Positions 14,365 through 26,255 of a stretch of DNA of 64,000 bases are shown here, one piece after another. The notes under the pieces were generated by a model that was not told the origin of the DNA, ran no database searches, and saw only the letters and a list, made by a program, of their open reading frames with translations. Position 1 is the stretch's first letter, and every line of letters starts with the position of its first letter. The stretch is from Streptomyces sp. SLBN-31 (GTDB lineage Bacteria; Actinomycetota; Actinomycetes; Streptomycetales; Streptomycetaceae), in NCBI RefSeq assembly GCF_006715395.1, contig NZ_VFNC01000003.1, positions 1,116,001 through 1,180,000 of the forward strand, in the 5' to 3' direction. The position numbers and the translations under genes are program-made.

Positions 14365-15699
14365 TCAGGCCATCCACCGATCCGGCAGGGCGTCGCGTCG
14401 TCCCGTCCGTGACCGCTCCGCCTGAGCCCGCAGCAGCTCCGCAGCCTCCTGGGCGTCCCTCAGCCGGGCCGTGACGGACTTGTTGGCCCCTGTGTCCACG
14501 TGCACGTCCGCGAGCCGCCACAGCCGCTTCCAGGGCCCTTGCGTCAGCCGCACGCTCTGCACCTTCGCATGCGGTACGAGCGTCAGGCGCCGGCGCAGCA
14601 GGCCGTGCCGGGAGGCGAACACCGCCTCGGTGACGGCCAGTCCGTGGCCGCGCCACCACACCGGCACGCATCGCCGGGCCCGGCGCGGCGGCCGCGACAG
14701 CGCCGCGGCCGCGGGCACGCTCACCCCGGGCAGCACGCGCGCGACGACGTCCTCGGCCATCTCGCGCGGAGCGACCGGCACGAGCACGGAGTTCGACGAC
14801 CCGGCCACGTCGAGTTCCACCCGGACCCAGCCGCGCCGCCGCCACAGCAGCGGCTCCACGATCCGCACGGCCTGCACGCGCCCGGGCGGCACCGTCTCGT
14901 GCGTACGGTCCAGCAGTCCGTGGTCGATGCGCAGTCCGTCCGGCGACTCGCCCACCGTCCAGTCGTACTCGCCGACGAAGCGCCCCACGCTGCTCGTGGC
15001 GGCCGCGCCGAGCAGGGGCACGCCGGTCGCGAGGACCGTCCACACGCTGTGGGTGGCCAGCCACAGCACGGGCGGTACGACGAGGGCGGCGGCGAGGGCG
15101 CCCCAGGTGGAGCCCGTCAGCACGAGGGAGATCGCGAGCTGGAGCGGGGGAGTGCGCAGCAGCTCGCGCGCCGGCGCTTCTCCGACCTCGTGCGCCGTCT
15201 CGGGGGCGAAACCGGCGGCGCGCGCCAGGAGTTCCGCGCGGAGCGCACGCGCCTCGCGCTCCCCGAGAAAAGCGAGTTCGTCCTTCTTGTCGGCCCCTAT
15301 GACGTCGAGCTTCAGCTTCGCGACGCCCGCCACGCGCGCCAGGAGCGGCTGGGTGACGTCGATGGCCTGGACGCGCTCGAGCCGGATGTGCGCGGTGCGC
15401 CGGAACAACAGCCCCGTCCTTATGCGCAGTTCGCTCTCCGTCACCGCGAAGTGCGTGAACCACCAGCTGAGGAAGCCGTACAGGGCGGCGGTCGGCACCA
15501 GGACGGCGAGCGCGATCAGCAGGGCCGTGGTCGTCAGCCTGGTCAGCTGGTGCTGCGCCTGGTCGGGATCGTGCAGCGCCCACCCGATGACCACCGCGAC
15601 CGGGGCCCAGGCCCGTCTGAGGGGCGTCACGGGATGCAGCCGCCGCTCGGCGACCGGCTTCTTCTCCCGTACGGCGTCGTCGACGTCCTGCGTGGTCAC
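14365..15699 (-). CDS. Large bacterial PH-domain (bPH2/YdbT-like) membrane protein
   Basis: The 444-residue protein contains several hydrophobic pairs (about 40-75, 180-215) and repeated bPH2 units. Examples are ESELRIRTGLLFRRTAHIRLERVQAIDV, GLLDRTHETVPPGRVQAVRIVEPLLWRR and the C-terminal ASRHGLLRRRLTLVPHAKVQSVR. This is the YdbT arrangement found in Gram-positive bacteria. Its GTG start (15699) overlaps the stop of the small bPH gene upstream as GTGA, the usual YdbS-YdbT operon order. In other species the pair has been linked to resistance to membrane-active compounds, but the biochemical role is unclear. Confidence 0.85.
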   Translation of the reverse strand: MTTQDVDDAVREKKPVAERRLHPVTPLRRAWAPVAVVIGWALHDPDQAQHQLTRLTTTALLIALAVLVPTAALYGFLSWWFTHFAVTESELRIRTGLLFRRTAHIRLERVQAIDVTQPLLARVAGVAKLKLDVIGADKKDELAFLGEREARALRAELLARAAGFAPETAHEVGEAPARELLRTPPLQLAISLVLTGSTWGALAAALVVPPVLWLATHSVWTVLATGVPLLGAAATSSVGRFVGEYDWTVGESPDGLRIDHGLLDRTHETVPPGRVQAVRIVEPLLWRRRGWVRVELDVAGSSNSVLVPVAPREMAEDVVARVLPGVSVPAAAALSRPPRRARRCVPVWWRGHGLAVTEAVFASRHGLLRRRLTLVPHAKVQSVRLTQGPWKRLWRLADVHVDTGANKSVTARLRDAQEAAELLRAQAERSRTGRRDALPDRWMA

Positions 15700-16208
15700 A
15701 GGCCCGCCGATCGGGCCTCGCCGAGCTCGGTGAGCCGGTCGCGCAGGCGTTCCGCCTCCGCCGGTTCGAGGCCCGGGATGGTCGCGTCGGTCGCCGCGGC
15801 CGCCGTGTGCAGCTGCACGCTGGCCAGCCCGAAGTGCCGCTCGACCGGCCCGGAGGTCACCTCCACCAGCTGCATGCGCCCGTAGGGCACGACGGTCTCC
15901 TCGCGCCACAGCACGCCCCGGCTGATCAGCAGGTCGTCGGCGCGTTCGGCGTACCGCCAGGAGCGCCAGTTGCGGCCGAGGAGCACCCAGCCCCAGGCCG
16001 TCAGTGCGAGCGGCAGCACGGCGAGGGCCGCCCAGGCCGGCCCGGCGAACAGGTACAGCAGCACTCCCAGGACGAGGGCGATCAGCCCCAGCCACACCAC
16101 CAGCAGCAGGCGCCGCATCCGCAGCAGGCCGGGCGGCAGTCCGCGCCACACCGGCTCCGTCGTCCCGTCCCCCCGCGTGCCCGCGTCCTGCGGGCTCCCC
16201 GTCTCCAT
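15696..16208 (-). CDS. Small bacterial PH-domain (bPH2/YdbS-like) membrane protein
   Basis: A 170-residue protein with two transmembrane helices (about 30-50 and 53-73) followed by one bPH2 domain: [27 protein letters not shown] and [20 protein letters not shown] 16208 ([10 protein letters not shown]) is preceded by TACGCT 6 nt away, suggesting leaderless translation. It is coupled to the larger bPH gene by GTGA. Divergent from nuoD with about 30 bp between starts, so their promoters overlap. Confidence 0.85.
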
Positions 16209-16220: not shown

Positions 16221-16239
16221 CGTAGGAGAGACTGTGTCC

Positions 16240-17391
16240 ATGACTCCCACGACGGAGACCATGGTCGGAATCGGCGGCGCCGCGGAGAGCACCGACATGG
16301 TGCTCAACATCGGACCGCAGCACCCGTCCACGCACGGCGTGCTGCGTCTGCGGCTGGTGCTGGACGGCGAGCGGATCACGCACGCGGAGCCGGTGATCGG
16401 CTACATGCACCGCGGCGCGGAGAAGCTCTTCGAGGCGCGCGACTACCGCCAGATCATCATGCTCGCCAACCGCCACGACTGGCTGTCGGCCTTCTCGAAC
16501 GAGCTGGGCGTCGTCCTCGCCGTCGAGCGCATGCTCGGCATGGAGGTGCCCACGCGCGCGGTGTGGACGCGCACCCTGCTCGCGGAGCTGAACCGGGTGC
16601 TCAACCACCTGATGTTCCTCGGCTCCTATCCGCTGGAGCTCGGCGGCATCACCCCGGTCTTCTACGCGTTCCGGGAGCGCGAGGTCCTCCAGAACGTCAT
16701 GGAGGAGGTCTCCGGCGGCCGGATGCACTACATGTTCAACCGCGTCGGCGGTCTGAAGGAGGACCTGCCGGCGGGCTGGGCCGCACGCGCGCGTGCCGCC
16801 GTCGCCGACGTGCGCTCGCGCATGGACCGCTTCGACGACCTGGTGCTCGGCAACGAGATCTTCCGTGGGCGCACGCGCGGCGTCGGGCCGCTCACGCCCG
16901 ACGCGGTGCACGCCTACGGGGTGAGCGGGCCGATCGCGCGCGCCTCGGGCGTGGACTTCGACCTGCGCCGCGACGAGCCGTACCTCGCCTACGGGGAACT
17001 GCAGGACACCCTGAGGGTCGTCACCCGGCAGGAGGGCGACTGCCTCGCCCGCTTCGAGGTGCTCCTGGAGCAGACCCACAACGCCCTCGACCTCGCCGAC
17101 GCCTGCCTCGACCGGCTCGCCGACCTCCCGCCCGGGCCGATCAACCAGCGGCTCCCGAAGGTCCTCAAGGCGCCCGAGGGCCACACCTACGCCTGGACCG
17201 AGAACCCCCTCGGCATCAACGGCTACTACCTCGTCAGCAAGGGCGAGAAGACCCCGTACCGGCTGAAGCTCCGCTCCGCGTCGTACAACAACATCCAGGC
17301 CCTCGTGGAGCTGCTGCCGGGGACGCTGGTCGCGGACATGGTGGCGATCCTGGGGTCGCTGTTCTTCGTGGTCGGGGACATCGACAAGTAG
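16240..17391 (+). CDS. nuoD2: Orphan NADH dehydrogenase I subunit D paralogue
   Basis: NuoD is the 49-kDa-type subunit of complex I that helps form the quinone pocket beside cluster N2. The 383-residue protein has the hallmark [15 protein letters not shown] (His32 matches the quinone-site His) and YMHRGAEKL, where Arg58 matches the bovine NDUFS2 Arg85 that is dimethylated. At the position of the quinone-binding Tyr (bovine Tyr108 in RLDYVS) it has Trp81 (NRHDWLS). No hydrogenase-type CxxC pairs are present. No other nuo gene lies in the window, so this is a stand-alone paralogue. AGGAG at 16224 serves ATG 16240; GTG 16234 is possible. It converges with a MidA-family methyltransferase. Confidence 0.9.
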
Positions 17392-17461
17392 CGGTCGCGG
17401 GGCGGGACGGTCGTGTGCCCTGCCGGTCGTCGGTTGGTCCGGCTCCTCTTGGGGCGGGCCG

Positions 17462-18586
17462 TCAGTCGATCGGCGCGGCCGGGATTCCCACCGGTTGCAG
17501 CAGCCAGCCGAAGTCGCCGAGGCCGCCCGGAGCGGTGAGTTCGGCGGCCTCGCCGGCGCTCGCGAGGGCGCGTACGTAGGCCGCGGGTTGCGTGGACGCC
17601 AGTGCGAGCGGGGGGCGAGCGCCGGTGATGCCGAGGGCGCGCAGCGCGTCGCGCTGACGCATGAGGAGCGCGCGGGGGGTGGTGTGCGCCGCTGAGTGCG
17701 CCTCGTGCGCCACTCGGTCTTCCCTTTCGCGCGCCGTGCGCGCCCCCACCGTCGCCTCCCCGCGCGCCGCGCACGCGTCCAGTGCGACGTGCGCCGTGAT
17801 GTCGCACGACCCGTCCGGCACGGGTGCCGTCTCGCGCCCCGCGCGAAACCCGGTGAGCGTCCCGAACAGGGGGCGCGCGGCCACGGTGTGCGCGTAGTCC
17901 ACGGCGACCGCGAGCCCCCGGTCGACCGAGGCGACCGCCCCGGCCCAGGCCTCGTCCCGTGGAAGCCCAATCTCGGCCCGCAGCCCTTCCTCGCCACCCG
18001 AGGACCCGGCCTCGCCGTCCCCCGGCGTCCCCGCCCCACCGCTCAGCGGCCACCACCGGGCCAGCCACTCCGCCTCCGCCCCGTCGACCCTCTCGCCGAG
18101 ACGCTCGGTGCCGTCCCGGAGTACGAGGACCCGGCGGGGCACGCCGTCGGCGTCCACCTCGGCGATGTCGAGCGGCACATTGTCGAGCCACTCGTTGGCG
18201 AACAGCAGGCCGGTGACGCCGTGCGGCGGCTCGGACAGCCACTGCACGCGTTCGTCCAGACCGGCGGGGCGGTCGGCGACTTCGACGGCGTACACGCACG
18301 TGCGTGCGGCCACGTCGGCGGGCAGGGCGGTCAGGGCGCCGACGGCCAGTTCGCCGCGTCCCGCCGCCATGTCGACGAAGTCCAGCCGGGCGGGCCGGCC
18401 CAGAGCCTCGTCGACCCGGCACAGCAACCTCGCCACGGCTTCGGCGAACAGCGGCGAGGCGTGGACGGACGTACGGAAGTGCCCGGCCGGTCCCTCGGGC
18501 CTGCGGTAGAAGCCCTCCGGCCCGTACAGGGCCGCCCGCGTCGCCGCCCGCCAGCCGTGCCACTCGCCCGCCGCCACTTCCGTCAC
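17462..18586 (-). CDS. MidA/NDUFAF7-family SAM-dependent methyltransferase
   Basis: This 374-residue protein matches the SAM_MT_28 (MidA/NDUFAF7) family. Blocks seen are [23 protein letters not shown] near the N-terminus, a SAM loop [11 protein letters not shown], and [13 protein letters not shown], the family's NE-LD-P signature. The human member, NDUFAF7, symmetrically dimethylates an arginine of NDUFS2, the NuoD orthologue. Here the gene ends 70 bp from the end of orphan nuoD, convergent to it. GTG 18586 is preceded by TAGCCT 6 nt away, so it is probably leaderless. Methylation of a NuoD protein is inferred, not shown. A Gly/Glu-rich insertion sits near residues 185-205. Confidence 0.82.
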
Positions 18587-18704: not shown

Positions 18705-19907
18705 GTGCAGCGCCTCTATGACTTCCTCCGCAGACACCCGACCGGGGTCGACACCTTCTGGGCCGTCATCCTGTTCGGGATCTCGCTGGTCAGCGAGGCC
18801 GGCCATGGGGACACCCGGGGCACGCTCTCTCCGGCCCTGATCGTTCCGATCTCGCTGCTGCTGTGCCTGGTGATCGCCCTGCGGCGGCGCTTGCCGGAGA
18901 AGATGCTTCTGCTGACCATCGGCCTCGGCGTGGCACAGCTCGCGCTGGACGTGGCGACGATGCCCGCCGACTTCGCCATGCTGGTGATCGTCTACACGGT
19001 GGCGGTGATGGGCACCCGCTGGGCCTCCCGAGTCGGGCTGGCCGTGGGCTTGTGCGCCGCGACCGCGGCGGAGATCCGCTGGCCGGTGGAGCACTCGAGC
19101 ACCGTGGGCCATGTCGCGGTGGTGATCTTCCAGACGGTGCCGTTCGCGCTGGCCTGGGTGCTCGGCGACTCGATCCGTACCCGGCGTGCCTACTTCGCGC
19201 AGCTCGAGGAGCGCAACGCCCGGCTGGAAAAGGAGCGCGAGGCGCAGGCCAAGGTCGCGGTGGCGGCCGAACGCGCCCGGATCGCGCGCGAGCTGCACGA
19301 CGTGGTCGCGCACAACGTGTCGGTGATGGTGGTGCAGGCCGACGGCGCCGCCTACGTCCTCGACACCGCCCCCGACCAGGCGAAGAAGGCCCTGGAGACC
19401 ATCTCCTCCACCGGTCGCCAGGCGCTCGCTGAGATGCGCCGCCTGCTGGGCGTGCTGCGCACCGGCGAGCACAAGGAGGTCGGCGAATACGTCCCGCAGC
19501 CCGACGTCGAGCAGATCGACGAGCTGATCGAGCAGTGCCGCACCTCCGGCCTGCCCGTCGACTTCAAGGTGGAGGGCACTCCGCGCCCGCTGCCCAGCGG
19601 TGTCGAGCTGACCGCGTACCGCATTGTCCAGGAGGCGCTGACCAACACCCGTAAGCACGGCGGGCCCAACGCGGGCGCGAGCGTGCGGCTGGTGTACTTC
19701 GACGACGGCCTGGGACTGCTCGTCGAGGACGACGGCAAGGGCGCCCCGCACGAGCTGTACGAGGAGGGCGGCGCCGACGGACAGGGGCACGGCCTGATCG
19801 GGATGCGCGAGCGGGTCGGTATGGTCGGCGGCACCCTGGACGCGGGCCCGCGCCCAGGCGGTGGGTTCCGCATCAGTGCGCTCCTGCCGCTGAAATCCGC
19901 GCACTGA
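18705..19907 (+). CDS. Two-component sensor histidine kinase (NarL-type, HisKA_3)
   Basis: The 400-residue kinase has five or six N-terminal transmembrane segments (about residues 16-155) and a short linker coiled coil (LEERNARLEKEREAQAKV). The HisKA_3 dimerisation helix has the phosphoacceptor His198 in ARELHDVVAHNVSVM, and the HATPase_c domain has LTNTRKHGG (N box) and a GLIGMRERVGMVGG G-box. The large membrane part with almost no external loop suggests sensing of a membrane or lipid signal. GTG 18705 is probably leaderless. The response regulator gene follows 75 bp downstream on the same strand. The signal is unknown. Confidence 0.92.
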   Translation: MQRLYDFLRRHPTGVDTFWAVILFGISLVSEAGHGDTRGTLSPALIVPISLLLCLVIALRRRLPEKMLLLTIGLGVAQLALDVATMPADFAMLVIVYTVAVMGTRWASRVGLAVGLCAATAAEIRWPVEHSSTVGHVAVVIFQTVPFALAWVLGDSIRTRRAYFAQLEERNARLEKEREAQAKVAVAAERARIARELHDVVAHNVSVMVVQADGAAYVLDTAPDQAKKALETISSTGRQALAEMRRLLGVLRTGEHKEVGEYVPQPDVEQIDELIEQCRTSGLPVDFKVEGTPRPLPSGVELTAYRIVQEALTNTRKHGGPNAGASVRLVYFDDGLGLLVEDDGKGAPHELYEEGGADGQGHGLIGMRERVGMVGGTLDAGPRPGGGFRISALLPLKSAH

Positions 19908-19982: not shown

Positions 19983-20654
19983 ATGACGATCCGCGTGATG
20001 CTCGTCGACGACCAGGTGCTGCTGCGCACCGGGTTCCGGATGGTGCTCGCCGCGCAGCCGGACATGGAGGTCGTCGCGGAGGCGGGCGACGGGGTCGAGG
20101 CGCTCCAGGTGCTGCGTTCGACGTCCGTGGACGTCGTCCTGATGGACGTCCGGATGCCCAAGCTCGACGGAGTGGAGACCACCCGCCGCATCTGCCAGGA
20201 GGAGAACCCGCCGAAGGTGCTGATCCTGACGACCTTCGACCTCGACGAGTACGCCTTCTCCGGGCTGAAGGCGGGCGCCTCCGGGTTCATGCTCAAGGAC
20301 GTGCCGCCCGGTGAGCTCCTGCACGCCATCCGTGCCGTGCACAGCGGCGACGCGGTGGTGGCGCCGTCGACCACGCGCCGGCTGCTCGACCGGTTCGCGC
20401 CGATGCTGCCGAGCGCCGGCAAGGAGCCCCAGCACAAGGAACTGGAGCGGCTCACAGAGCGCGAGCGCGAGGTGATGGTGCTGGTCGCGCAGGGGCTGTC
20501 GAACGGTGAGATCGCGGCCCGGCTCGTACTGTCCGAGGCGACGGTGAAGACCCATGTCGGCCGCATCCTGACCAAGTTGGGGCTGCGGGACCGGGTGCAG
20601 GTGGTGGTGCTGGCGTACGAGACGGGGCTGGTGCGCGCCGGCGGGCACGGATGA
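19983..20654 (+). CDS. Two-component response regulator (NarL/LuxR family)
   Basis: A 223-residue regulator with a receiver domain (VMLVDDQVLLRTGFRMVL, phosphoacceptor Asp55 in DVVLMDVRMP, switch Thr in LILTTFDLDEYAF and Lys in FMLKDV) and a C-terminal LuxR-type helix-turn-helix (LTEREREVMVLVAQGLSNGEIA and SEATVKTHVGRILTKLGLRDR). It is the cognate partner of the kinase immediately upstream. The ATG follows GAAGAGGCCCCG. Targets cannot be read from sequence; neighbouring genes such as the TmrB-like gene are candidates. Confidence 0.93.
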   Translation: MTIRVMLVDDQVLLRTGFRMVLAAQPDMEVVAEAGDGVEALQVLRSTSVDVVLMDVRMPKLDGVETTRRICQEENPPKVLILTTFDLDEYAFSGLKAGASGFMLKDVPPGELLHAIRAVHSGDAVVAPSTTRRLLDRFAPMLPSAGKEPQHKELERLTEREREVMVLVAQGLSNGEIAARLVLSEATVKTHVGRILTKLGLRDRVQVVVLAYETGLVRAGGHG

Positions 20655-22625: not shown

Positions 22626-22841
22626 ATGAGCATCACGCAGCAGTACTTCCTCGACGCCTACCGTGCCCGGCAGGCCGGCGAGCCCGCCCCGCCCGCGCCG
22701 GGCGCGAACGACTGGCAGGTCGTGCGCGAGTGGCGCGACGAGCGCGAATTCCGCGCGCTCGTCGCCGGCCGCCCGGCCCACGGGCGGACGCGGCTCGCAC
22801 TGGGCCGGTGGCTGCTTCGGCGGCAGCGCTCTACCCGCTGA
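22626..22841 (+). CDS. Small hypothetical protein (71 residues)
   Basis: From ATG 22626 this frame encodes 71 residues (MSITQQYFLDAYRARQAGEP), followed by DWQVVREWRDEREFRALVAGRP and a basic C-terminus. The upstream GAGAGGG could be a weak ribosome site. Small proteins beginning in this way occur beside ArsR-type genes in other Streptomyces, as far as I recall. Its end overlaps the 3' end of the convergent threonine aldolase gene by 11 nt. No domain is recognised. Divergence from the ArsR-type regulator suggests it could be the regulated partner. Confidence 0.55.
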   Translation: MSITQQYFLDAYRARQAGEPAPPAPGANDWQVVREWRDEREFRALVAGRPAHGRTRLALGRWLLRRQRSTR

Positions 22842-24108
22842 CGCTTTCGGTCGTGCCGGCCGTTCCCGCCTCGCCGGTCTCCTCGGTGAGGCGGGAGGCG
22901 AACTCCGCGACCGCCGCCCGCACGTCGTCGGCCGTCCACTCCAGGGCCTCGGCGCGGACGCTCACCTCGGTTGCGGCGAGGCCAGGACCCTTCTCGGCCC
23001 AGGCGTTGGCGAAGAGAACGGTCCTCGTCTCCTCGCCCTGCCGGATCGCCGCCTCCGAGAGCACGTCGGCGTCGTACGGCAGCCAGACCTGGAACTCGTG
23101 CGTGTGCGGCGTCCCGGGGTGCACGCGCGCCCACGGAAGGCCGGCCGCCGCGAACCCCTCGCGGAGCGCGGCGGCCACCACGCGCGCGTGGGCGACGTAC
23201 TCGGGCAGCCGGGGCAGCTCGCGCTCCAGTCCGGCGAGGGCCGACAGCACGGTCGGGAACTGCTGGAAGATCTGGCCGCCGTAGCGGTGCCGCCAGGCCT
23301 TCGCCTCGTCGATGAGTGGCTTCGGGCCGGTGAGGGCGGCACCGCCGTAGCCCCCGAGGGACTTGTAGAACGACACGTAGACGCTGTCGGCCAGGGACGC
23401 GATCTCCTGCAGGGGGCGGCCGAGGTGCGCGGTGGTCTCCCACAGGCGCGCGCCGTCGAAGTGCACCACCGCGTCGCGCTCGCGCGCGGCGTCCACGACC
23501 GCGGTGAGTTCCTCCCAGGAGGGCAGCACGAAACCGGCGTCCCGCAGGGGCAGTTCGAGCATCAGCGCTCCGAAGGGCTCCTCGAAGTCGCGCACCTCGT
23601 CGGCGGTGGGCAGCCGCGGCTCGCTCGTCACCCGCACCGGGCGCAGTCCGCTGACCCGGCTGAACGCGTCGCGTTCGTGCACCTCGGGATGGGCGAGGGC
23701 GTGCAGGGCGACCGTGGGGTCGCCGGTGCGGCCCGCCCAGCAGCGCAGGGCCACCTGCTGGGCCATCGTGCCCGTAGGGAAGAACGCGGCGGCCTCCATG
23801 CCGAGCAGCCCGGCGACCTTCGTCTCCAGGGCCTCGACGACGCCGTCGCCGTAGATGTCCGACGGCTGGTCGAGATCGTGGACGTCGCCCACCCCGTCCA
23901 GCAGCGCAAGGCGCTCCCGGAGCGTGTTCAGGTGACCGGGGCGCCCGAGCACGCGCCGCGCGCCCCGCAGAGCGCTGACGCGCCGTAGGCGCCGACGCCT
24001 GGCCCGCTCCTCCTCGGAGGCCGGCTTGGCCGGCTCCCTCTCGGACACCCGTTCTTCCTCGGACACCGGCTCCCCTGCCTGCCCGTCCTGCTCCACCGCA
24101 TCGCTCAT
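22831..24108 (-). CDS. Threonine aldolase family PLP enzyme
   Basis: A beta-eliminating lyase/low-specificity threonine aldolase of 425 residues, PLP-dependent, fold type I. Visible motifs are DLDQPSDIYGDGVVEALE, FFPTGTMAQQVALRCW, HFDGARLWE (PLP-interacting Asp) and SFYKSLGGYGGAAL with the Schiff-base Lys. Such enzymes split L-threonine or L-allo-threonine to glycine and acetaldehyde. The first ~50 residues are a charged, disordered extension. ATG 24108 was chosen; ATG 24120 (MIRAM) has a better GGGGA spacing and is equally possible. It is divergent from the DUF2520-panC operon. Confidence 0.87.
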   Translation of the reverse strand: MSDAVEQDGQAGEPVSEEERVSEREPAKPASEEERARRRRLRRVSALRGARRVLGRPGHLNTLRERLALLDGVGDVHDLDQPSDIYGDGVVEALETKVAGLLGMEAAAFFPTGTMAQQVALRCWAGRTGDPTVALHALAHPEVHERDAFSRVSGLRPVRVTSEPRLPTADEVRDFEEPFGALMLELPLRDAGFVLPSWEELTAVVDAARERDAVVHFDGARLWETTAHLGRPLQEIASLADSVYVSFYKSLGGYGGAALTGPKPLIDEAKAWRHRYGGQIFQQFPTVLSALAGLERELPRLPEYVAHARVVAAALREGFAAAGLPWARVHPGTPHTHEFQVWLPYDADVLSEAAIRQGEETRTVLFANAWAEKGPGLAATEVSVRAEALEWTADDVRAAVAEFASRLTEETGEAGTAGTTESVSG

Positions 24109-24294
24109 GGCCCGGATCATGCCCGTCCCCGCTCCGCGCGAGCACCCGGATTTCCACAGGCGTTCGGGCCGTGCGAACAACGTGCGATAACCCACAGCCT
24201 GTGGACAAGCGGACGCCCCTCGAACCGATCGCGTTAACATGACGAGAAATCGTCCGGTACCCGGAGCGGACTGGAACGGGAAGGCCGCCGTCGC

Positions 24295-25224
24295 GTGAGT
24301 ACAAGCCAACAGCCAGACCCCAGGGACCGCCCCGCGCGGCTCACCGTCGGCGTCGTCGGCGCCGGTCGTGTGGGCCCCGCACTCGCCGCGTCCCTCCAGC
24401 TCGCCGGACACCGCCCGGTCGCCGTCTCCGGAGTCTCCGACGCCTCTCGCAGGCGCGCCGCCGAGATGCTGCCCGACGTCCCCCTCGTCCCGCCCGCCGA
24501 GGTGCTGCAGCGCGCCGACCTGGTCCTGCTGACCGTGCCGGACGACGCCCTGCCCGGCCTGGTCGAGGGCCTCGCCGAGACCGGGGCCGTGCGGCCCGGG
24601 CAGCTGCTCGTGCACACCTCCGGGCGCTACGGCGCGAAGGTGCTGGACCCCGCCCTGCGCGCGGGCGCGCTGCCGCTGGCCCTGCACCCGGCGATGACGT
24701 TCACCGGCACCCCCGTGGACGTACAGCGGCTCGCCGGTTGCTCCTTCGGGGTCACCGCGCCGGAGGAGCTGCGACTGGCCGCCGAGGCCCTCGTCATCGA
24801 GATGGGCGGCGAACCCGAGTGGATCGCCGAGGAGATGCGCCCGCTGTACCACGCGGCGCTCGCCCTCGGCGCCAACCACCTGGTCACACTGGTCGCGCAG
24901 TCCATGGAACTGCTGCGCGAGGCAGGGGTCTCGGCCCCCGACCGGATGCTCGGCCCGCTGCTCGGCGCCGCCCTCGACAACGCCCTGCGCTCCGGCGACG
25001 CTGCCCTGACCGGCCCGGTCGCGCGCGGGGACGCCGGCACGGTCGCCGCCCATGTCACGGAGCTGCGCAAGTACGCCCCGCAGACCGTCGCCGGCTATCT
25101 GGCGATGGCCCGCGCGACCGCCGACCGGGCACTCGCCCACGGCCTGCTCAAGCCGGAGCTCGCCGAGGACCTCCTCGGGGTACTCGCCACCGGCACCGAC
25201 GGCGCCGAGGGAGACGCCCGATGA
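24295..25224 (+). CDS. Rossmann-fold DUF2520 oxidoreductase next to panC
   Basis: The 309-residue protein has an N-terminal NAD(P)-binding Rossmann motif ([17 protein letters not shown]) and a C-terminal helical DUF2520 domain, including [20 protein letters not shown]. Proteins with this architecture are common directly before panC in actinobacteria. A ketopantoate-reductase-like role (making pantoate for PanC) is plausible from the fold and position, but I cannot verify it. GTG 24295 follows GGGAAGG. Its stop overlaps panC as ATGA, so the two are co-translated. It heads the DUF2520-panC-nadB-nadC-coaX operon. Confidence 0.85.
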
Positions 25225-26255
25225 CCACCACCCTGCTGCGCACCGCCGAAGAACTCCACGCACGCACGCGTACCGGCCGTCGCGCCGTCGTGATGACCAT
25301 GGGCGCCCTGCACGAGGGGCACGCCACCCTGATCCGCACCGCCCGGGAGATCGCCGGTCCGGACGGCGAGGTCGTCGTCACCGTCTTCGTCAACCCGCTG
25401 CAGTTCGGCGCGGGCGAGGACCTGGACCGCTATCCGCGCACCCTGGACGCCGACGTGAAGCTCGCCGGGCTGTCCGGCGCGGACGCCGTGTTCGCGCCCT
25501 CCGTGGACGAGGTCTACCCGGGCGGCGAGCCCCAGGTGCGCATCAGCGCCGGCCCGATGGGGGAGCGCCTGGAGGGCGCCTCCCGCCCCGGCCACTTCGA
25601 CGGCATGCTCACCGTCGTCGCCAAGCTGCTGCACCTCACCCGCCCGGACGTCGCCCTGTACGGGCAGAAGGACGCCCAGCAACTCGCCCTGATCCGCCGC
25701 ATGGCACGCGACCTGAACTTCGGCGTCGAGATCGTCGGCGTTCCCACGGTGCGCGAGGAGGACGGCCTCGCCCTCTCCAGCCGCAACCGCTACCTCTCGC
25801 CCGCGGAACGGCGCACGGCGCTCAACCTCTCCCGCGCGCTGTTCGCCGGCCGCGACCGGCACGCGGCCCAGGAGGCGCTGCGCGCGCGGGCGCTGGCGGC
25901 GCCCGCCACGCACGCGCGGGCCGAAGCGCTCAGCGCGATCGGGGAGTCCCGCGCGGCCGCCGACGCGCACGCCGTCGCCAAGTCCCGTCCCGCCACCGCC
26001 CTCGGCGAGGACGCCTCGCGCGGCACCTTCCACGGCGCCCCCTCCGCCGTACGTGCCGCGGCCCGGCAGGTCCTCGACGACGCCGCGCGCCTCTCGCCGC
26101 CGCTCCAGCTGGACTACCTCGCCCTGGTCGACCCCGCCGACTTCACCGACATCGGGGACGACTTCACCGGCGAGGCCGTGCTCGCCGTCGCCGCCCGGGT
26201 CGGGACGACCCGGCTGATCGACAACCTTCCTCTCACCTTCGGAGCCGCCTCGTGA
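25221..26255 (+). CDS. panC: Pantothenate synthetase
   Basis: PanC joins pantoate and beta-alanine with ATP to give pantothenate. The motifs [14 protein letters not shown] (HxGH nucleotide site), [15 protein letters not shown] and SSRNRYLS (KMSKS-like) are intact, as is [20 protein letters not shown]. The protein is 344 residues against about 283 in E. coli; the extra length is an Ala/Arg-rich insertion of about 45-50 residues in the C-terminal domain (about 228-280). It overlaps the DUF2520 gene (ATGA) and nadB (GTGA) and is therefore translationally coupled on both sides. Confidence 0.95.

Follow-up and report, generated by a model that had tools for sequence, protein, structure and literature searches.

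In the complex I of Yarrowia lipolytica, the arginine of the HRG motif in subunit D (NuoD) adjoins cluster N2, whereas Thermus thermophilus has a threonine at this site and an arginine of subunit B (NuoB) occupies the same space (PMC8042128; papers are cited here by accession, each for the portions of its text that were available). The MidA protein of Dictyostelium and human NDUFAF7 bind NDUFS2, the mitochondrial counterpart of NuoD (PMC9006661). Streptomyces possesses a second set of complex I genes, nuo2, whose function is called unclear and whose cluster in S. coelicolor is said to be devoid of NuoC2 (PMC9239103). In addition, nuoD2 has been described as the member separated from the remaining second-copy nuo genes, and the N-module genes as missing; this separation is already in print (PMC3765725, PMC8388888). 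Here we analyze 64,000 nucleotides of Streptomyces sp. SLBN-31 (the window; contig NZ_VFNC01000003.1, positions 1,116,001 to 1,180,000), which belong to the third contig (C3) of a 9.47-Mb genome in three contigs. In the window, nuoD2 converges with a gene of the MidA/NDUFAF7 family of S-adenosylmethionine (SAM)-dependent methyltransferases, whose human member methylates a single arginine of NDUFS2 in mitochondria (Table 1). The single methylatable NuoD found in the genome adjoins the single enzyme found of the MidA family, and, judging from sequence comparison, MidA likely dimethylates Arg58 of NuoD2 as part of nuo2 assembly.

An earlier note on this DNA had described a stand-alone nuoD and a MidA-family gene that converge with their ends 70 bp apart, and both the stop-codon coordinates and the matches to PF00346 and PF02636 agree with this layout. 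NuoD2 scores 234.5 bits against PF00346, matches NCBIfam models for NuoD, in one case above the cut-off, aligns with the D subunits of complex I structures in the PDB at E values down to 1e-81 and is up to 96% identical to proteins of named Streptomyces. An alternative GTG start at 16234 would give a protein of 385 residues, as in several database entries. The gene is indeed stand-alone: about 176 kb of the same contig separate it from the main nuoA-N operon, and the genome profile search found no PF00346 gene in the nuo2 cluster. Arg58 aligns with the HRG motif of the eukaryotic 49-kDa subunit (9f5x), in line with its proposed equivalence to NDUFS2 Arg85. In contrast, NuoD1 of the same genome reads IGYLHTGIEK, with threonine at the position of Arg58, and T. 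thermophilus Nqo4 has HTGFEK at the same site. The statement that HRGxEK is conserved in all NuoD was thus wrong, and the linkage, which the earlier note regarded as the new point, is joined by a second one, the Arg/Thr split between NuoD2 and NuoD1. Searches of the whole genome returned NuoD1 (twice, in an overlap of contig ends) and NuoD2 for PF00346, with nothing further, and one gene for PF02636. As the arginine is lacking in NuoD1, no candidate substrate of this kind other than NuoD2 was found.

A recent duplication of NuoD1 was rejected as the origin of NuoD2, since the two are only 35% identical and the NuoD tree separates Arg-type (50 rows) from Thr-type proteins (21 rows) on one branch with support 100/97; one row (L183), given a wrong letter by a regular expression, was excluded from this label count and later read as Arg. 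The main nuo operon is seen twice with small differences, from position 1 to about 21600 of contig C1 and at the end of C3. A true second copy was rejected here, as the C1 start repeats places of the C3 end at a nearly constant offset; the doubling is probably an unmerged contig overlap and no duplication.

The partner complex of NuoD2 is indicated by the residue that faces it. The nuo2 cluster, at about 48.9-59.1 kb of C1, comprises A2, B2, C2, H2, I2, J2, K2, L2, M2, and N2, of which NuoH and the L/M/N type were assigned by family, NuoC2 by PF00329 and the others by eye; subunits E, F, and G were not seen by eye among its open reading frames, for which no family search was made. Joining of C3 and C1 at the overlap would place nuoD2 about 220 kb from this cluster. 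NuoB1 contains VAGRVSQKM, identical in the mycobacterial chain of 8e9g, and NuoB2 contains VSGTVTDKM, which aligns with the mitochondrial VAGTLTNKM. Threonine in NuoB2 is therefore paired with Arg58 in NuoD2, and the NuoB1/NuoD1 pair is the opposite (Arg/Thr).

DNA patterns for both states of NuoB and NuoD were scanned in 217 genomes of the phylum, and a NuoD match at most 3 kb downstream of a NuoB match on the same strand was taken as a linked pair. All 128 linked pairs are matched, 37 as Thr-B/Arg-D and 91 as Arg-B/Thr-D, with no crossed pair. No NuoD motif was found within 3 kb of 45 Thr-type and six Arg-type NuoB matches, and all eight sampled genomes of the host genus are among the former, as a detached D subunit predicts. 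Thirty-four genomes have Arg-type NuoD but no Thr-type NuoB pattern, and in 19 with Thr-type NuoB an Arg-type NuoD was not found; one of these (G134) was later read as HRCFEK. Three genomes of one family (f19) have Thr-type NuoB, and neither Arg-type NuoD nor MidA was found in them.

Relatives of NuoD2 with 74-95% identity, from Streptomyces, Actinoplanes, Kribbella, and others, share one tree branch (100/98) with nuo2-type NuoD encoded within operons; NuoD2, which is not itself a row of the tree, is placed by these relatives and by a tryptophan that it shares with the branch. Together with the residue match, this assigns NuoD2 to nuo2, with physical assembly as a prediction. The orphan status claimed for the gene holds with respect to the main operon, but not functionally. 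Given its great distance from nuo2, nuoD2 could also encode an alternative D subunit for the main 14-subunit complex I. We regard this as very improbable, as NuoB1 and NuoD2 would place two arginines in one space, a combination absent from the linked pairs; moreover, NuoD1 and NuoD2 are old separate branches, and no further D subunit for nuo2 is encoded in the genome.

The pairing of nuoD2 with MidA is well supported by genomics. Among 101 genomes of the genus Streptomyces, nuoD2 (87-100% identity) is present in 100 and PF02636 in 99. Neither was found in one genome (G028), and in another (G050, 82% complete) nuoD2 is near a contig start and MidA was not found. The distance between the two, measured between matched stretches and not gene ends, is at most 2 kb in 84 of the 100 genomes with nuoD2, 2-10 kb in 11 and more than 10 kb in two; the genes are on different contigs in two, and one has no match. 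In the 84 close pairs, MidA is downstream on the opposite strand, as here, in 41, upstream on the same strand in 41 and downstream on the same strand in two. The adjacency of the two genes exceeds chance.

The same association is observed across the phylum. By pattern alone, 54 of the 217 genomes have both Arg-type NuoD and MidA, 30 only the former, 18 only MidA and 115 neither (Fisher p 1e-14, overstated because the genomes are related). Twelve pattern-negative MidA genomes have HRAAEK or HRSVEK, in which the arginine is kept and the next glycine replaced; adding them gives 66, 30, 6, and 115, although this re-reading covered MidA genomes only and so favors the association. Collapsed to 59 families, the counts are 25 with both, eight with Arg-type NuoD only (including f25 and f39, which look hydrogenase-like and were kept), one with MidA only and 25 with neither. 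Five rows were left out of the pattern count, two encoding serine (G241, G140) and three judged not to be NuoD (G056:C13, G143, G303). Forty-one genomes yielded Thr-type NuoD alone, and five of them have MidA. A genome with MidA almost always has the arginine as well, but MidA cannot be foretold from the arginine. In three families (f14, f49, f53; loci L149-L160), NuoD2-type proteins with HRAAEK have MidA adjacent, the glycine after the arginine being alanine; glycine is said to come after most methylated arginines (PMC3750175).

Inherited gene order could also keep the two genes together, with MidA acting on another protein or a small molecule. Part of the Streptomyces adjacency is indeed shared gene order, as the histidine kinase and response-regulator genes move with MidA and other window genes also stay near in Streptomyces relatives. 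In the loci checked, the kinase (DUF7134) and regulator-like genes adjoin MidA in Streptomycetaceae, Actinomadura, and Catenulispora. However, the pair is kept in Kribbella, Actinoplanes, and Terrabacter, whose loci have no match to either gene. Moreover, one genus contains three arrangements, in five genomes outside the host class (G194, G276, G266, G286, G235) the two genes again converge, their matches separated by less than 100 bp, and in other genomes MidA is located about 9 kb downstream of an Arg-type NuoD on the same strand. MidA is also absent from 36 of the 41 genomes mentioned above. Eighty named loci with NuoD2-type genes were inspected, and MidA lies within the fetched flanks in 64, convergent in 26 of them and upstream in the same orientation in 38. 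Isolated matches to NuoC2 or NuoL2 in these loci were attributed to low-complexity queries and disregarded. In the 16 others, eight have NuoD amid several nuo2-type genes, and some of the rest stop at a contig edge. We therefore consider gene order by itself an unlikely explanation, which retains some weight from the branch with arginine but without MidA and from the weak sequence likeness between MidA and NDUFAF7.

Besides the biases noted with these counts, several observations weigh against a dedicated methylation of NuoD2. NuoD proteins with GYMHRGFEK, of nuo2 type and on the same tryptophan branch, occur in 15 genomes, of which 14 have no MidA (named relatives include Nitriliruptorales and others). 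A diverged MidA near nuo2 was not found in this branch, where one genome (G185) gave a weak BLAST match (E 7e-5) without a profile match. E. coli has the arginine unmethylated (PMC3750175), so that, with this branch also considered, the arginine is not dependent on the enzyme. MidA is also missing from G122 and G242, in which the Arg-type NuoD is near a contig end. Conversely, no Arg-type NuoD was found in six MidA genomes. Three of them (G151, G163, G205) have Thr-type NuoB, so an Arg-type NuoD may have been missed; one (G273, 83% complete) is devoid of PF00346 matches, and two (G191, G302) are without explanation. The earlier note had read an enzyme-substrate pair from linkage and looked to co-conservation of the two genes across genomes as its check. 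The genus and phylum counts uphold the co-conservation and support this interpretation in part; one branch has the arginine and no MidA.

The MidA product itself is a clear family member, with 58.3 bits against PF02636 (cut-off 23.3; MidA/NDUFAF7, COG1565) and a MidA fold that spans the whole chain. Two features weigh against its proposed action on NuoD2. The SAM motif DMAAGRGEL keeps two of three glycines, the first being alanine here and in some other Streptomyces MidA proteins, and the protein is distant from NDUFAF7 in sequence, with E 1e-3 to 5ztz, the Dictyostelium homologue through which the comparison was made. This PDB entry bears the title of Shahul Hameed et al. 2018. The alanine, and the binding of NDUFS2 by Dictyostelium MidA and human NDUFAF7, would fit a MidA that aids NuoD2 as a chaperone or in assembly, its methyl transfer lost or unused. 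The retention of the other SAM-motif glycines, of the NExLDN motif and of the fold over the full length makes this improbable.

The second-copy nuoD beside a MidA-family gene, in Streptomyces and many other actinobacteria, looks like a dedicated enzyme-target pair. In the mechanism that we propose, NuoD2 would supply the D subunit in trans to nuo2, and MidA would bind it before or during its joining to NuoB2. MidA would then symmetrically dimethylate Arg58, predicted to lie beside the site of cluster N2 in the space that the NuoB1 arginine occupies in the main complex. Four elements of this mechanism are inferred, namely the activity of MidA, its choice of Arg58, symmetric dimethylarginine as the product and a role of the modification in nuo2 assembly.

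NuoD2 carries a second unusual residue. Trp81 replaces the quinone-site tyrosine (T. thermophilus Nqo4 Tyr87), a residue (Tyr108 in mammals) that, along with a histidine, is expected to donate a proton to quinone (PMC9120487). Among 73 aligned NuoD proteins, tryptophan is found at this site in 40, namely NuoD2 and 39 rows of one tree branch; tyrosine is present in the 21 Thr-type rows and in 10 further Arg-type ones, and two hydrogenase-like rows have glycine. His32, Arg58, and Trp81 are the same in all 110 further loci (30 of the genus and the 80 named). The named loci were found with patterns that include GYMHR, so the arginine there is partly due to selection, but the tryptophan is not. Its novelty against the literature is tentative. 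A bolder and rather doubtful reading is that actinobacteria possess an ancient second complex I with a doubly unusual terminal redox site, a MidA-installed methylarginine and tryptophan for tyrosine, and without canonical menaquinone reduction, its D subunit and MidA being encoded together, away from the other subunits, as a maturation cassette in Streptomyces and many relatives. Its reaction may then involve a different acceptor or another proton route, or proceed in reverse. If the tryptophan is real in the assembled enzyme, it would limit the universality of the tyrosine mechanism.

Next to nuoD2 lies a divergent bPH_2 gene, which also adjoins it in some relatives and is a neighbor, at most a candidate member of the system. 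Homologues of the PF01212 gene of the window adjoin MidA in Actinoplanes, Terrabacter, Aeromicrobium, and others; in Actinoplanes and Terrabacter this threonine-aldolase-like gene, MidA, and nuoD2 stand in a row.

Table 1 Coordinates of nuoD2, the MidA gene and neighboring features in the window
Feature	Position	Strand	Basis or remark
bPH_2 (bacterial PH domain) gene, divergent from nuoD2	15696..16208	-	Family match
nuoD2, NADH-quinone oxidoreductase subunit D, Arg-type, 383 aa	16240..17391	+	ATG 16240, TAG stop
Codon of Arg58 (HRGAEK), counterpart of mammalian NDUFS2 Arg85	16411..16413	+	Alignment
Codon of Trp81, replacing quinone-site Tyr	16480..16482	+	Alignment
70-bp gap between the stop codons of nuoD2 and the MidA gene	17392..17461		
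MidA/NDUFAF7-family SAM-dependent methyltransferase gene, 374 aa	17462..18586	-	GTG 18586, stop 17462-17464
NEWLDNVP motif, conserved, MidA residues 131-138	18173..18196	-	Glu132 and Asp135 invariant over 82 rows
SAM-binding glycine motif DMAAGRGEL, MidA residues 72-80	18347..18373	-	Alignment
Histidine kinase gene (DUF7134, HisKA_3, HATPase_c)	18705-19907	+	Family match; beyond MidA gene
Response-regulator-like open reading frame	19983-20654	+	Read by eye
Beta_elim_lyase gene (PF01212, threonine-aldolase-like domain)	22834-25260	-	Family match

Arginine methylation beside N2 may serve assembly, redox tuning or both. One cell with two complexes I, one having the arginine and MidA and one having neither, offers a natural experiment, in which loss of midA should affect nuo2 alone and leave the main complex intact. 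In addition, NuoD2 is now linked to nuo2 at the level of residues, and nuo2 acquires a probable maturation factor. The nuoD2 of S. coelicolor is presumably SCO3392. A literature search found no paper on SCO3392 and none on a MidA methyltransferase with complex I in actinobacteria, and a search for NDUFAF7 with bacteria and nuoD returned only a proton-pumping paper.

Three known systems come closest to the locus. In the available portions of the accounts of Streptomyces nuo2 and nuoD2 (PMC3765725, PMC8388888, PMC9239103), MidA, the Arg/Thr split, the NuoB match, and the tryptophan are not mentioned, and NuoC2 is present here, unlike in the S. coelicolor cluster as described. As in the NuoB/NuoD switch of T. 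thermophilus and Y. lipolytica (PMC8042128), each complex has one arginine beside N2, from B or from D; those states are divided between two species, whereas both are found in one genome here. A likeness is also seen to NDUFAF7/MidA and NDUFS2 of human and Dictyostelium and to the dimethylated Nqo4 of Paracoccus, with which the pair shares the enzyme family, the fold, and the HRG arginine of the same subunit. Unlike NDUFAF7 and NDUFS2, the enzyme gene here adjoins that of its probable substrate, the main complex I is without the arginine, and the predicted methylation has its target in the second complex.
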